Below are positions 7,917-45,940 of a DNA stretch of 64,000 bases, one piece after another. The stretch comes from Megalobrama amblycephala. Lineage: Eukaryota; Chordata; Actinopteri; Cypriniformes; Xenocyprididae. The notes beneath the pieces are model-generated. The model did no database searches. It saw only the letters and a list, made by a program, of their open reading frames with translations, and was not told the DNA's origin. The first letter of the stretch is position 1. The number at the start of each line of letters is the position of its first letter. The stretch spans positions 13,682,623 to 13,746,622 of the forward strand of contig NC_063053.1 of the NCBI RefSeq assembly GCF_018812025.1. Direction: 5' to 3'. A program made the translations under genes and the position numbers.

Positions 7917-9482
7917 CAGGTGCTGGTCATATAATTAGAATATTGTGAAAAAGTTCATTTTTTTTATTGTAAATTATTTTTAAAAATGAAACTTTCATTT
8001 ATACTAGATTCCCTACATGTAAAGTAAAACATTTCAAAAGTTTTTTTTTTTTTTTTTTTAATTTTGATGATTAGAGAGCGTACAGCTCATGAAAGTCCAA
8101 AATCCAGTATCTCAAAATATTAGAATATTTACATTTGAGTTTCATTAAATGACCATCCCTACAGTATAAATTCCGGGTATCTCTTGTTCTTTGAAACCAC
8201 ACTAATGGGGAAGACTGCTGACTTGGCAATGGTCCAGGAGACAATCATTGACACCCTCCACAAAGAGAGTAAGTCACAGATGGTCATTACTGAATGGGGT
8301 GGCTGTTTACAGAGTGATGTATCAAAGCATATTAAATGCAAAGTTGACTAGAAGGAAGAAATTGGGTAGGCAAAGGTGCACAAGCAACAGGGATGACCAC
8401 AAGCTTGAGAATACTGTCAAGTAAAGCTGATTCAAACACTTGGGAGAGCTTCACAATGAGTAGAATGAAGCCGGAGTCAGCGCATCAAGAGTCACCACAC
8501 TCGGACATCTTCAGGAAAAGGACTACCAAGCCACTTCTGAAACAGAAACAACGTCAGAAGCATCTTACCTGGGCTAAGGAGAAAAAGAACTGGACAGTGA
8601 ACAGTGGTCGGAAGTCCTCTTTTCAGATAAAAGTACATTTTGCATTTCATGTTGAAATCATGGTCCCAGAGTCTGAAGGAAGACTGGAGAGGCACAGAAT
8701 CCAAGCTGCTTGAAGTCTAGTGGGAAGTTTCTGAAGTTAGTAATGATTTGGGGGGCCGTGACGTCTGCTGGTGTTGGTCCATTGTGTTTTATCAAGTGCA
8801 AAGTCAATGCAGCCATCTTCCAGGAGATTTTGGAGCACTGATGCACAGATGGAGATGCTTCCATCTGCTGACAAGCTTTATAGAGATGCTGATTTCCTTT
8901 TCCAGCAGGACTTTAGCACCTGCCCACAGTGCAAAAACCACTTCCAAGTGGTTTGCTGACCATGATATTACTGTGCTTTATTGGCCAGCCAACATGCCTG
9001 ACCCCTGAATCTATGGGATATTTTCAAGAGAAAGATGAGAAACAGTCGATCCAACAATATACAGATGATCTGAAGGCTCAATAGTGCCTCAGCAGTGCCA
9101 CAGGCTGATCACTTCCATGCCACACTTCACCGATGCTGTAATTTGTGCTAGAGCAAGTCATTTGCTGTAATATGTGCTGCCGACCAAGTATTGAGTGTAC
9201 AAATGAACATACTTTAAAGAACTTGAACTTTTCTGTTTTGAAAATCCATTTTTTGATTAATCTTAGGAAATATTCTAATATTTTGAGATACTGGATTTTG
9301 GACTTTCATGAGCTGTACGCTCTAATCATCAAAATTAAAAAAAAAAAAAAAAAAAAAACCTTTTGAAATGTTTTACTTTACATCTAGGGAATCTACAATA
9401 TATGAAAGTTTCATTTTTAAAAATAATTTACAATAAAAAAATGAACTTTTTCACGATATTCTAATTATATGACCAGCACCTG
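7917..9482 (+). mobile_element. Tc1-like transposon 2, full-length but dead
   Basis: Ends CAGGTGCTGGTCATATAATT and AATTATATGACCAGCACCTG are perfect inverted partners and are flanked by TA on both sides (7915-7916 and 9483-9484), the Tc1/mariner signature. The inverted repeats run about 210 bp (7917-8130 and 9268-9482). They include a poly-T tract near 8041-8059 mirrored by poly-A near 9337-9358. Total 1,566 bp, a normal Tc1 length. Confidence 0.85.
8180..9150 (+). pseudogene. Tc1-like transposase pseudogene (element 2)
   Basis: The open pieces at 8393-8713 and 8748-9008 follow the order of a Tc1-family DDE transposase. A short FSDKSTF segment near 8618 holds the first catalytic Asp, an IWGAVTSAG block follows near 8750, and a FQQDFS block near 8900 holds the second Asp. 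The region that should carry the third acidic residue (PDLNPIE-type motif) is missing by a small deletion near 9000-9012. Several frameshifts and in-frame stops are also present. It cannot encode active enzyme. Confidence 0.75.
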
Positions 9483-23467: not shown

Positions 23468-24395
23468 AATAAAACCATCTCGAGATTAAAGTTGTTAAAT
23501 TTCGAGAAAAAACTCGTTAAATTATGAGAACAAATTCGTAATTTAACAAATTTGTTCTTGTAATTTAACGTTTTTTTCTCATAATTTAATGACTTTATTC
23601 TCAACATTTTATCTTAACTTTTTTCTTGAAATTTAATGACATTTTTCTCATAATTTAACGAATTTGTTCTCGTAATTTAACGACTTTTTTCTCGTAATTT
23701 AATGACTTTATTCTCAACATTTTATCTCAACTTTTTTCTCAAAATTTAACGACATTTTTCTCATAATTTAACGACTTTTTTCTCGTAATTTAATGACTTT
23801 ATTCTCAACATTTTATCTCGACTTTTTTCTCGAAATTTAACAAGTTTTTTTTCTCGTAATTTAATGACTTTATTCTCAACATTTTATCTCGACTTTTTTC
23901 TCGAAATTTAACGACATTTTTCTCATAATTTAACAAATTTGTTCTCGTAATTTAACGACTTTTTTCTCGTAATTTAATGACTTTATTCTCAACATTTTAT
24001 CTCGACTTTTTTCCTCGAAATTTAACGAATTTTTTCTCGAAATTTAACATTTTTCTCATAATTTAACGAATTTGTTCTCGTAATTTAACGACTTTTTTCT
24101 CGTAATTTAATGACTTTATTCTCAACATTTTATCTCAACTTTTTTCTCAAAATTTAACGACATTTTTCTCATAATTTAACGAATTTGTTCTCGTAATTTA
24201 ACAACTTTTTTCTCGTAATTTAATGACTTTATTCTCAACATTTTATCTCGACTTTTTTCTCGAAATGTAACGAGTTTTTTTCTTGTAATTTAACGAGATT
24301 ATTCTCAACATTTTATCTTGACTTTTTTCTCGAAATTTAACACGTTTTTTCTCGAAATTTAACAACTTTAATCTCGAGATGGTTTTATTTTTTTA
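23468..24395. mobile_element. TIR element with internal minisatellite body
   Basis: The left flank AACCATCTCGAGATTAAAG with GTTGTTAAATTTCGAG is exactly mirrored at the right (CTCGAAATTTAACAAC, then CTTTAATCTCGAGATGGTT), giving ~45-bp inverted repeats at 23468-23512 and 24344-24390. The right side continues into GCTTGGCCCTAATCCTCTTC (to ~24421), whose left counterpart is missing, so the element is probably 5'-truncated. Everything between is tandem repeat. Confidence 0.65.
23510..24360. repeat. Minisatellite of TTCTCGTAATTTAACGACTT-type units
   Basis: About 850 bp built of ~22-24 bp subunits (TTCTCGTAATTTAACGACTT, TTCTCGAAATTTAACGA, TTCTCATAATTTAACGA). A marker variant TTCTCAACATTTTATCT recurs eight times, near 23600, 23713, 23804, 23876, 23988, 24121, 24234 and 24304. 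Spacings are therefore irregular, 70-133 bp. The array is AT-rich with regularly placed CTCG steps. Open frames crossing it are artefacts. Confidence 0.9.
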
Positions 24396-35532: not shown

Positions 35533-36378
35533 GTTAAACACAACCCAGTCTCATTAGAAAAACGTACCTGTGGGAACATTTTCGCGAGTTGCAAAATACG
35601 TACCAATACGTTCACTGCAGTTTCGATGTGAAATGTCCACTGAGTGGCGTTAAAAGCGTGTTAATTTTTTTTGCCGGAGCAGATAAACGTGAATATGGTA
35701 CGTTTTTATGACGTTAGTTCTGATTTGACATTTGCACTCCATTGCGTTTTAAAATAACGTACCACCAACACTACACCTAAACCTACCCGATAGTCTTAAC
35801 AAAAGCAAATGTGACATAAAAAGTATCCGTAATCGTACCGTTTTAGCTTGTTTAGATCTCTCTTTGAGCTCTTTTACCGTGACTCGCCTTTCACGGAATT
35901 TGTACCCAAGGCTTTCTCGTCTTAAGTACTCCGTATCAGCTGAGCTAACAAGATGTCAGAAAAGCAAAACATATGGAGCTGGTTAAGCAATGCAAAGCCC
36001 AAAATATATTCGTTTACAAGTTGTGCACTCTGGTAAAAAAGCGTTTTGAAGTCATAACATAATATTGTGCAAGGAGACGTGAAAACGAGTCTTTATTAAT
36101 CCATAATCTGACCCCATAATCGTAACTGCGTATGAAAACGATTAAAAGCGCTTGCCGTTTTACTGCCTCTCATTTCTGTTGGAAACTGCAGAGATATGTA
36201 CGTGTAATGGAGGCCAGCTTGTAGTTGCTGTGCGAGTAAACCTCACTCCTCTGATCTCAAGAGATTTGTAGTTGCAGCATTTAGCCTCCTTGTTACAGCG
36301 TCCGATTCCCATGCCGGAGACCCATGTTTGAGGCCCGCGCAGAGCGGGGCGAGTAGGACCTGGGTAGAGGGGAAACAT

Positions 36379-36396
36379 TGGTGCCGTGACCCGGAT
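36379..36396 (+). promoter_or_regulatory. tRNA-His-type primer-binding site (first of four)
   Basis: TGGTGCCGTGACCCGGAT differs at one position from TGGTGCCGTGACTCGGAT, the complement of the 3' end of vertebrate tRNA-His as used by some endogenous retroviruses. Equivalent sites follow LTRs 2, 3 and 4 at 36614-36631 (one further change, GCCATG), 36849-36866 and 37083-37100. Confidence 0.6.
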
Positions 36397-36484
36397 GGGA
36401 GTGAGGTTTAGGGGGGTGAGTGTAACGGAGGCCAGCTAGTAGTTGCTGTGCGAGTAAACCTCACTCCTCTGATCTCAAGAGATG

Positions 36485-36505
36485 CTCTAGCGACTGACGC
36501 TAGAG
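36485..36505 (+). other. Perfect hairpin in LTRs 2-5
   Basis: CTCTAGCG-ACTGA-CGCTAGAG forms an 8-bp perfect stem with a 5-nt loop just upstream of the tRNA-like segment. It is present in LTRs 2 to 5 and absent from LTR 1, which accounts for most of the length difference. Confidence 0.7.
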
Positions 36506-36509
36506 GTTG

Positions 36510-36585
36510 CAGCCTTTAGCCTCCTTGTTAGAGCGTCCGACTCCCATGCCGGAGACCCAGGTTCGAGGCCCGCACAGAACGGGGC
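36510..36585 (+). promoter_or_regulatory. tRNA-like segment with A and B boxes inside LTR 2
   Basis: TAGCCTCCTTG (36517-36527) resembles the Pol III A box TRGYNNARNNG. GGTTCGAGGCC (36560-36570) matches the B box GGTTCGANNCC exactly. Their 43-bp spacing equals that of real tRNA genes, and an anticodon-arm-like CTCCCATGCCGGAG lies between. The T-stem pairs only partly, so it is tRNA-derived rather than a functional tRNA gene. The same B box is kept in LTRs 3-5 and degraded in LTR 1 (TGTTTGAGGCC). Confidence 0.55.
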
Positions 36586-37395
36586 GAGTAGGACCTGGGT
36601 AGAGGGGAAACATTGGTGCCATGACCCGGATGGGAGTGAGGTTTAGGGGGGTGAGTGTAACGGAGGAAAGCTAGTAGTTGCTGTGCGAGTAAACCTCACT
36701 CCTCTGATCTCAAGAGATGCTCTAGCGACTGACGCTAGAGGTTGCAGCCTTTAGCCTCCTTGTTAGAGCATCCGACTCCCATGCCGGAGACCCAGGTTCG
36801 AGGCCCGCACAGAACGGGGCGAGTAGGACCTGGGTAGAGGGGAAACATTGGTGCCGTGACCCGGATGGGAGTGAGGTTTAGGGGGTGAGTGTAACGGAGG
36901 AAAGCTAGTAGTTGCTGTGCGAGTAAACCTCACTCCTCTGATCTCAAGAGATGCTCTAGCGACTGACGCTAGAGGTTGCAGCCTTTAGCCTCCTTGTTAG
37001 AGCATCCGACTCCCATGCCGGAGACCCAGGTTCGAGGCCCGCACAGAACGGGGCGAGTAGGACCTGGGTAGAGGGGAAACATTGGTGCCGTGACCCGGAT
37101 GGGAGTGAGGTTTAGGGGGTGAGTGTAATGGAGGCCAGCTAGTAGTTGCTGTGCGAGTAAACCTCACTCCTCTGATCTCAAGAGATGCTCTAGCGACTGA
37201 CGCTAGAGGTTGCAGCCTTTAGCCTCGTTGTTAGAGCGTCCAACTCCCTCACCGGAGACTGGGTTCGAGGCCCACGCAGAGCGGGGAAAGTAGGACCTGG
37301 GTAGAGGGGTTACATACGCATTGATACGTATTTTGGCTACTTGCGAAAACGTTCCCACAAGTACGTCTTTCCTATGAGACCAGGTTGGTTAAACA

Positions 37396-40151
37396 ACAAT
37401 TAATATACATCTTTTTTTAATTGTCATGAAATCATACTGACTTGTGGGTTCTACAGAAGAATACTGTACAGTATATCATCACATAACAACATTGTAGCTC
37501 AAGGTCTGTCTCGAAAGGTTTATACATTATAGTCAAAAATCAATTTCTCTATGGAGAAAGTCAATAGGAGTTTTACTTCCATAACCCAGAAGTTTCTCTG
37601 TTTTGATCTGCTAAAATTTTGGCTATGGCCTATATAAGCACTATAAATAACACAGTAAACCATGCTGCTCATTTTCATAAAACTGTTTCATTTTTCATTC
37701 AATAACATCTCTCATTGCCTTTATGAGGCAGAGTTCATAAAATCATAAACTGTGTGGCACTGAGAATCAAGATTTAACCCAATTTATGAGTTAAGAGGCC
37801 TATCTATCAACCCATTAGCTCTTGATTAGGTCAAAATATGGAACGTCAATTTTGAAAATATGTATATACAGATATATTGGAGGTTTGCCAAAAACAGCCA
37901 CGCTACGGCTGCTATAAAAGAATAATGTCAAGGAACATTTGTCATGACTGTCCCTTCAAATTGTTGCCAAGAAAATGACAGCACTTAGATTTAAATTTTA
38001 ATTTCAGTTTAAATTTAGATTTAGATTTAAGCCAAAGCTCAATCCAACTCCAGAGTCATTCAACTGTCCTGCTTGAGTAACAGTCAAATAGTCAACGAGA
38101 AACATATGTGAATCATGTTTTGGAAATACTGTAAATGTAAATAATTTTATCAAAATATTTGATCTGTGTGTCTACCTTCTTTACCATACTTTTTTTTTTC
38201 ATTTGTCCCGATTTTATGCAGTTCTGCATTGTTGTTTTGGATGTCACAGTAATATCTCTCCAGGTGGAGGGAAATATCATAAACAGTGAAGCCTGCAGTG
38301 CTGCTGAAGGCTGATCTAAATCACAGACTCTTTGTAATGCATCTGCATTCTTAGGTTTGAACAAGGCAAGGAAAGAGACAGGCGGAATCAGAGAGAAAGA
38401 GCAGAAATATGGGAAGAAGGGTCCTGAGGAGACATGAGATTATTATTAAGTCTTCTGTCCAAAGCATGCCAGCACTTTCAAGGATAAATTTGCAAAATGT
38501 TATGAAGTGTCATTTTCTTTATTAAATATTCTTATTCCTCATGACAAAAAGGCAATATTTTGTTTCAGCAGGAATCCTAAGAGAAAGATTGTATCTTCTT
38601 CACAAAGTTTTATCTCTACGGTGTAATTTAAAGACTATTGAGGTTTTAATGTGGCATTTGTTGGCATTGTATGAAATTCTATCTAAATAAAACATGCTCT
38701 TGACAAAGGTGCAACAATAAAACTGCAATCGAAATGACCTCAAGCTAAGCCACTGAATCAATATTGAAGCAAAGGGAAGTCAGTAAAGAAATCAATGGCT
38801 CTCTATGGGGAGAAATATGTTCCTGTTAGATCCACCAGTGCATGGATGAAAGTAAACTTGCGGCACCCTCAACATGTGACAATACAGAGCTGAAACCATG
38901 CTAATAAACATGATGAGTTAAGAAAGTCAAAAGTGTCATCCTGAGGGAAAATGGTCACACACACAGTCAATTGCTAAATTTCTTTGGTCTCTTTAGTAGT
39001 AATTAGCTACAGTATGTGGTTTCAGTGATTTATTTGTACCAGATAAATACTTGTTCTCTAATTAAAGCTTTTTTTGGTTAAAAATGATCCAAAATCAATT
39101 TTTGAGCAAGTACATAACCAGCCAGTGTTCAAAACTATCTAATTATCTTGTCTCGATTCACAACAGTAAGCTTGTAATAATGTTTTATAATAAGAGCGAC
39201 ATGGCAGATTTCTGCGGTAAATTCGAGCATGCAGCAGTTCCTCTGTGCGTCATTACATCACGTCCGTAAACAGAAAGGAAGGAGTCCCGTCGAGAGGCTA
39301 GTCAGTTATATCATGTGAGGATGCTGCTGGTAGCGGCACATTTATAGCCTTTTCTCACAGCAGCTGAAATAATTAAACTAATCATTTTGATGGCGGATTG
39401 TAATCCAGAAAGATCCAAATGACAATCATCAGTGACAACTGGAGATTTACCCGTAGTCAAAAAGCAAAAGACTGTGGAGTGGCTACAGAAATTGAAATCT
39501 ACAGGTAACGCTAATACACACTAAATACACAGTCACGCAATGCTGATGTTGTTAACAATAACAATTTGAGAACAATATAACAGTAATAATAATTTGCACG
39601 GTTTGGCATGATCTGAGCTAAGCGATCGTTAAATTTAATCACCATTAGCAGCGCGATTTATTGTAGGTCTAATGCTTTTTTCCTCAGTTGGTCAGAACAA
39701 AAGTGGCAGACATGTTACTTACTTGTTCAGATGATATTTTCCAGTGAAAATTCTTATATTGGTCATACTTTCAAGATGTAGAATCTGTGATTCTGAAGTG
39801 CAGTATCTACACCAGTGCGGTGACTGACAGCAAACATTAGATTCATCCGCGCCGACGAGCTGTGCTGAGGCACAACGCACGTACAGATAACTGTTCCGCA
39901 TATGACTGCAATCGCATGTTTCAAACAGAGATGGCGAAAAAGAGGAAAAATCACGGACTGCAGCTTTAATTAAATCACGTAATCTGATGATTATAGAATT
40001 TAAAATATATTGCCTCATTAATTAGCTTTAATGCTGTTTTTGGTAACTTGTAGTGTAAATAGGTACTTTTTAAAAGATTGCAAAAAGCTGTTCATCTATA
40101 AAACATCTATAAAAAAAATTGGACAAAATGAGTAAATGATATACATGTATT
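37396..40151. other. No gene seen
   Basis: Mostly unique-looking AT-rich sequence. Open frames (e.g. 39719-40018 on the minus strand, 99 codons) have no recognisable domain. 39190-39420 is slightly less AT-rich but has no supportable exon. Confidence 0.35.
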
Positions 40152-45062: not shown

Positions 45063-45940
45063 GTGGGATATATTAGGCAGAAAGTGAACATTTTGTCCTC
45101 AAAGTTGATGTGTTAGAAGCAGGAAAAATGGGAAAGCATAAGGATTTGAGTGAGTTTGACAAGGGCCAAATTGTGATGGCTAGACGACTGGGTCAGAGCA
45201 TCTCCAAAACTGCAGCTCTTGTGGGTCTGCAGTGGTCAGTATCTATCAAAAGTGGTCCAAAGAAGGAACAGTGGGTCATGGTTGGCCAAGGCTCATTGAT
45301 GCATGTGGGGAGCGAAGGCTGGCCCGTGTGGTCTGATCCAAGAGATGAGCTACTGTAGCTCCAATTGCTCAAGAAGTTAATGTTGGTACTGATAGAAAGG
45401 TGTCAGAATACACAGAGTTCATTGTAGTTTGTTGCGTATGGGGCTGCATAGCCGCAGACCAGTCAGGGTGCCCATGCTGACCCCTGTCCACCGCCAAAAG
45501 CACCAACAGTGGGCAAGTGAACATCAGAACTGGACCACGGAGCAATAGAAGAAGGTGGCCTGGTCTGATGAATCACGTTTTCTTTTACATCATGTGGATG
45601 GCCGGGTGCGTGTGCGTTGTTTACCTGGGGAACACATTTGCGCCCTGCCACAAAGCAAAAATGGTTCAGGAATGGTTTGAGGAGCACAACAATGAGTTTG
45701 AGGTGTTGACTTGGCTTCCAGGTCATTCCCCAGATCTCAATCCAATCAAGCATCTGTGGGATGTGCTGAACAAACAAGTCTGATTCATGGAGGCCCCACC
45801 TCACAACTTACAGGAGTTAAAGGATCCGCTGCTAACATTTTGGTGCAAGATATTACAGCACACCTTCAGGGGTCTAGTGGAGTCCATGCCTTGAAGGGTC
45901 AGGGCTGTTTTGGAAGCAAAAGAGGCAACAACAATATAAA
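45063..45940 (+). mobile_element. 5'-truncated Tc1-like transposon 3 with internal deletion
   Basis: GTGGGATATATTAGGCAG starts immediately at the LTR end, and transposase follows: a helix-turn-helix region (45128-45240, [19 protein letters not shown]), then HHVDGRVRV-like sequence near 45590. It then jumps, missing roughly 80 residues, to PCHKAKMVQEWFEEHNN near 45650 and SPDLNPI near 45730. No terminal repeat is recognisable on either side. Frameshifts and stops inactivate it. It is a different Tc1 lineage from the two at 6-9.5 kb. Confidence 0.75.

Follow-up and report, generated by a model that had tools for sequence, protein, structure and literature searches.

A five-LTR tandem array of a probable Helenus-type TRIM in the genome of Megalobrama amblycephala

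A stretch of 64,000 nucleotides of Megalobrama amblycephala DNA (64 kb; hereafter, the window) contains, at positions 36203-37314, five LTR-like units in strict alternation with four very short internal segments, which raises the question of what kind of element underlies such a structure and how it came to be repeated. The alternation, proposed in an earlier note on this DNA, is borne out by the coordinates (Table 1). Placed by the anatomy described for that group, the locus is very probably a Helenus-type TRIM repeated in tandem, with a tRNA-derived stretch in the LTR as a possible Pol III promoter. It is this tRNA-like stretch in the LTR that decides the type of element.

Table 1. Coordinates of the array and of its sequence features within the window.
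Feature	Position	Strand	Remarks
Left target-site duplication	36199-36202	.	TACG
LTR1	36203-36377	+	175 bp; 17-bp gap relative to the other LTRs; B box decayed
A-box-like motif, other LTRs	36282, 36752, 36986, 37220	+	9, 9, 9 and 10 of 12, respectively
Internal segment 1	36378-36420	+	43 bp; PBS 36379-36396 (17/18), then purine-rich tract
LTR2	36421-36612	+	192 bp
Strong predicted hairpin, U3 arm and A-box region (LTR2)	36481-36537	+	
A-box-like motif (LTR2)	36517-36534	+	TAGCCTCCTTGTTAGAGC; 9/12 against TRGCYNARYNGG
B-box-like motif (LTR2)	36560-36570	+	GGTTCGAGGCC; 10/11 against GGTTCGANTCC, N counted
Internal segment 2	36613-36655	+	43 bp; PBS 16/18
LTR3	36656-36847	+	192 bp
B-box-like motif, other LTRs	36795, 37029, 37262	+	
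Internal segment 3	36848-36889	+	42 bp; PBS 17/18
LTR4	36890-37081	+	192 bp; identical to LTR3
Internal segment 4	37082-37123	+	42 bp; identical to segment 3
LTR5	37124-37314	+	191 bp; 3' half diverged; end TTACA
Right target-site duplication	37315-37318	.	TACG

Tandem Repeats Finder recovered the same array, with a period of 234 and 4.4 copies. All five LTRs start with TGTAA and four of the five end in AAACA, the exception being LTR5, so that TG...CA repeats surround a short non-coding internal segment, as in TRIMs. The length of about 190 bp previously given for the LTRs holds for four of them (191-192 bp) but not for LTR1, with its 17-bp gap; the figure of 42-43 bp for the internal segments agrees with the measured values of 43, 43, 42 and 42 bp. 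The 234-bp unit formed by LTR3 and internal segment 3 is repeated letter for letter by LTR4 and internal segment 4. The flanks of the array match over four letters (TACG on both sides) and cease to match at the fifth, which would occur by chance with a probability of about 0.005 given the composition of the window, and the single duplication around the whole array that the earlier note had seen thus stands. Judged from its letters, the element is a protein-less LTR retrotransposon of approximately 427 bp (192 + 43 + 192). A blastn search of the 64-kb window revealed no further copies: outside the array there were three short matches (E 6.1), and the matches with E 0.5 were inverted matches within the array itself. 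Exact scans of mainly non-eukaryotic contig collections with two slightly different PBS patterns (viral contigs; genome contigs) and with one LTR 22-mer yielded 0 stretches each.

The internal segments carry the signals expected for reverse transcription. From its second base onward, each begins with a primer-binding site, TGGTGCCGTGACCCGGAT, which in three of the four segments matches the complement of the 3' end of animal tRNA-His at 17 of 18 positions, and in segment 2 at 16 of 18. Elsewhere in the 64 kb, on either strand, the best match was 13/18, reached at one place. Ahead of each inner LTR, the closing 24 bases of the internal segment are 75-79% purine, and this purine-rich tract adjoins the next LTR, as expected of a PPT. 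A PBS beside the 5' LTR and a purine tract beside the 3' LTR are both present. Together with the TG...CA LTRs and the duplication, they complete the TRIM anatomy suggested by the earlier note, which had read the internal segment as nothing but a tRNA-His-like PBS and a purine tract; the PBS and the tract are confirmed, but the tRNA-like stretch in the LTR had been missed.

Every LTR contains the motif TAGCCTC(C/G)TTGTTA(G/C)AGC, with a B-box motif following 42-43 bases on (start to start). We take these motifs, by comparison with A-box and B-box consensus sequences, to be the boxes of a tRNA-type Pol III promoter. B boxes matching at 10 or more of 11 positions were found at only four places in the 64 kb on either strand, all of them in the array; in LTR1, the box has decayed to TGTTTGAGGCC (8/11). 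The A box is weak on its own: 1661 places in the window reach 9/12, and none of the 14 places that reach 11/12 lies within the array. The combination is confined to the array: an A box of at least 9/12 with a B box of 10/11 or better 30-60 nt farther on occurs at only four places, all of them there (64 kb, both strands). When the plus strand of LTR2 was aligned to a human tRNA panel (12 sequences), it scored 40, a value that 9 of 5000 dinucleotide shuffles attained; LTR5 scored 39, attained by 2 of 300 shuffles; the best score among 1302 window chunks outside the array was 35, the window being more AT-rich than the array. Within the panel, LTR2 aligned best to tRNA-Gly and LTR5 to tRNA-Thr, and tRNA-Val was outside the best five for both.

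An intact tRNA gene was rejected: the Rfam tRNA model gave no match up to E 10 (36100-37450), and a standard ARAGORN run yielded no tRNA gene, so we regard the stretch as a promoter-like remnant. At lowered thresholds, the folds listed by ARAGORN were unassigned or intron-bearing, and one among them (LTR1, 61-144) covers both boxes. Over the whole window, every Rfam family stayed below its gathering score; the hits to mir-355 (two), mir-1224 (two) and MIR2619, with E of 1.7 to 8.4 and far under gathering scores, were taken as chance. A run of four T is absent from the array, the first starting at 37331, 17 bases beyond its end. Therefore, Pol III transcription would not be terminated within the 3' LTR, which argues against a plain copy of the Cassandra scheme and favors read-through RNA.

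These features suggest a life cycle for the element. Pol III transcription would start a short way ahead of the A box, at around LTR position 86-90, and the RNA would run across the internal segment into the next LTR. Transfer RNA-His would then bind the PBS and prime reverse transcription, and the proteins for copying and insertion would be supplied in trans by an autonomous Gypsy-type element. A single insertion would be followed by multiplication and homogenization of the inner units through unequal exchange or conversion between LTRs, and the outward-facing parts of the end LTRs would drift meanwhile.

The distribution of differences among the LTRs fits this last step. Besides the identity of the two inner 234-bp units, private changes are found in LTR1 and LTR5, so that the earlier contrast between near-identical inner units and diverged outer LTRs is confirmed. 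In the alignment of 192 columns, the 9 private substitutions of LTR1 fall in columns 18-144, with the 17-bp gap beside three of them; they leave its inner quarter free but extend over some two thirds of its alignment, which counts against this reading. The 12 private substitutions of LTR5 lie in columns 104-189, together with a gap of one base, so that LTR5 is diverged in its outer half only. A rank test for edge polarity gave p 0.0036 for single substitutions and p 0.026 when neighboring changes were hand-merged to 6 (LTR1) and 7 (LTR5) events; the latter is the safer figure, because the substitutions are non-independent. Since private changes in the end LTRs lean outward, we infer one insertion, with the inner units multiplied and homogenized later. 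The outward lean fits the trace that would be expected if tandem LTRs had undergone unequal exchange or conversion. The first extra unit may be a product of exchange at the insertion site or may have been brought in with the cDNA, and both routes are discussed in the literature (PMC7215508, PMC11899658).

The second route might also be taken as the whole explanation, with a concatemeric transcript or a template switch producing a multi-LTR cDNA that was inserted as such. The single TACG duplication encloses the entire array, the missing four-T run makes a read-through concatemer RNA plausible, and the route was considered by Kalendar et al. 2020 (PMC7215508) and Morales-Diaz et al. 2025 (PMC11899658). 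However, pre-integration origin alone leaves unexplained both the outward lean and the presence of near-identical inner units beside diverged end LTRs, and we consider it unlikely as the full account; a pre-integration concatemer could have been the first step, with homogenization coming next. It is very doubtful that two adjacent insertions recombined through their LTRs into a chimeric array. The differences of LTR5 do cluster (columns 126-128, 138-139, 165-166 and 188-189), which could reflect mixing with another subfamily, and its different terminus could be a mark of the same, but the outer flanks of the array match at 4 letters (~0.005 by chance) and LTR1 and LTR5 have three states in common that LTR2-LTR4 lack (columns 6, 154 and 159). 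Finally, a plain satellite or an array of a tRNA-derived SINE, with no LTR element involved, would account for a tandem structure with a period of 234-235 bp but is scarcely credible given the TG...CA ends, the PBS beginning one base past the end of the LTR, the purine-rich tract abutting the next LTR, and an array that starts and finishes with an LTR inside a 4-bp duplication.

The preferred reading, expansion of a Helenus-type TRIM after one insertion, can be compared with the published description of the group. Helenus elements are defined as TRIMs whose LTR includes a tRNA-derived sequence (Kojima 2024, PMC10886601); tRNA-His is among their vertebrate primers, and their target-site duplications in animals are of 4 bp. 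Zebrafish LTR-11_DR has relatives in various Cypriniformes, and tandem arrays were reported for it (PMC10886601). A cyprinid host, as named in the earlier note, would fit this published range. The present array has in common with the LTR-11_DR group, as described there, the TRIM length, the tRNA-like stretch in the LTR, the PBS and PPT, the putative tRNA-His primer, the 4-bp duplication and the tandem arrangement. Its LTRs contain a tRNA-derived stretch, although not an intact tRNA; box B (GGTTC) is found in four of the five LTRs (within GGTTCGAGGCC) and is decayed in LTR1; of the box A motifs, TRGCY is found in all five LTRs and YGG is absent (TTGTT), the full consensus being matched at 9-10 of 12 positions; and the duplication has the 4-bp length typical of animals. 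Whereas fish Helenus elements were aligned to tRNA-Val (PMC10886601), Gly (LTR2) and Thr (LTR5) were the best matches of the present array in our panel. We regard the array as a new locus of a known kind, likened to LTR-11_DR by published description, rather than a new class of element, the kind and its tandem arrays having already been described in carp-like fishes.

Similar structures are known from other lineages, and the novelty that the earlier note attached to a multimeric TRIM does not hold, as tandem TRIM arrays have been published both for LTR-11_DR (PMC10886601) and for biv-TRIM of bivalves (PMC6934838). The latter is likewise a TRIM forming alternating repeat-internal arrays, with terminal repeats of 202-218 bp and, at its longest locus, 58 terminal repeats and 57 internal segments, but its internal segments measure 77-80 bp, against 42-43 bp here. 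SMART, or FRetro129, of grasses is likewise a tiny protein-less LTR element (292 bp, with LTRs of 85 bp, an internal segment of 122 bp and a 5-bp duplication; PMC3281118). The internal segment of Helenus-1_SMo is 85 bp (PMC10886601). The internal segments described here are shorter than those of FRetro129 (122), Helenus-1_SMo (85) and biv-TRIM (77-80), and no record is claimed. Cassandra of plants has in common with the present array a promoter of a small-RNA gene in the LTR of a TRIM and long LTR-internal arrays, and its self-complementary transcript is a further likeness; it differs in that its promoter is of 5S rRNA type and its LTRs have terminators, whereas that of the present array is tRNA-like and a four-T run is lacking (PMC7215508). 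An assignment to Cassandra or Ajax was set aside, as the Rfam search gave nothing for 5S rRNA at E values up to 10 (36100-37450). Retrozymes, too, are small LTR elements that are non-autonomous, have 4-bp duplications and carry a functional RNA motif in their LTRs, but the motif is a hammerhead ribozyme, unlike here (PMC4918200); this assignment was also set aside, with no hammerhead match up to E 10 (36100-37450) and no Rfam family at gathering score in the window.

The LTR is also predicted to fold as RNA. The stretch around the hairpin formed by the U3 arm and the A-box region (36476-36545) had a folding z of -5.0, with none of 200 shuffles as good; the fold was computed on LTR2 only, and the arm is present in LTR3-LTR5 as well, whereas LTR1 lacks 17 bp of it. 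On the minus strand, U3 aligned to tRNA-Lys with a score of 41, reached by 6 of 5000 shuffles, and its tRNA-Lys-like D arm is the predicted partner of the plus-strand A-box region in the hairpin. Note that the antisense signal and the hairpin are not independent, because a tRNA D arm is itself partly palindromic. For the longer predicted RNA of 36506-36847, none of 100 shuffles folded as well (z -6.5). Taken alone, 36506-36655 (z -2.14, 5 of 200 shuffles as good) and the U3-internal stem at 36613-36720 (z -1.74, 11 of 200) gave weak values and are not claimed as conserved folds. A perfect 13-base complement links LTR positions 36455-36467 with internal positions 36633-36645 and is present in all five LTRs and four internal segments; none of 1000 unit shuffles gave one as long, and, being invariant across all copies, it offers no covariation to test. 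Positions 36540-36552, part of the anticodon arm, are 85% complementary to 36625-36637, which run from the last part of the PBS into the adjoining sequence, and the two pair in the predicted RNA.

A more elaborate model would see the LTR as two head-to-head tRNA-like modules in a long hairpin, one on the plus strand and the other being the tRNA-Lys-like D arm of U3 on the minus strand, transcribed by Pol III from both strands and, for want of a four-T run in the array, into concatemeric sense and antisense RNA. We regard this model as improbable and likewise give little credence to the antisense stretch of U3 as a working second promoter; an antisense module goes unmentioned in the excerpted text of Kojima 2024 (PMC10886601). 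If true, the concatemeric sense and antisense RNA would seed both tandem growth and small-RNA silencing.

Read as a Helenus-type mini-element in the course of turning into a short satellite, the array would be a clean example: it has a single insertion site, its internal segments span only 42-43 bp, and its mutations are distributed in a way that fits homogenization of the inner units. Annotation of tRNAs and satellites should expect such arrays.

Elsewhere in the window, Pfam gave no match in the 6 scanned of 10 open frames of at least 110 aa. Two open frames, at 8348-8713 (+) and 45463-45807 (-), contain what may be Tc1-transposase-like stretches, with no match in Pfam. A separate AT-rich tandem array lies at 23480-24376 and is composed of 22-bp units, with a higher-order period of 113 bp among the reported periods.
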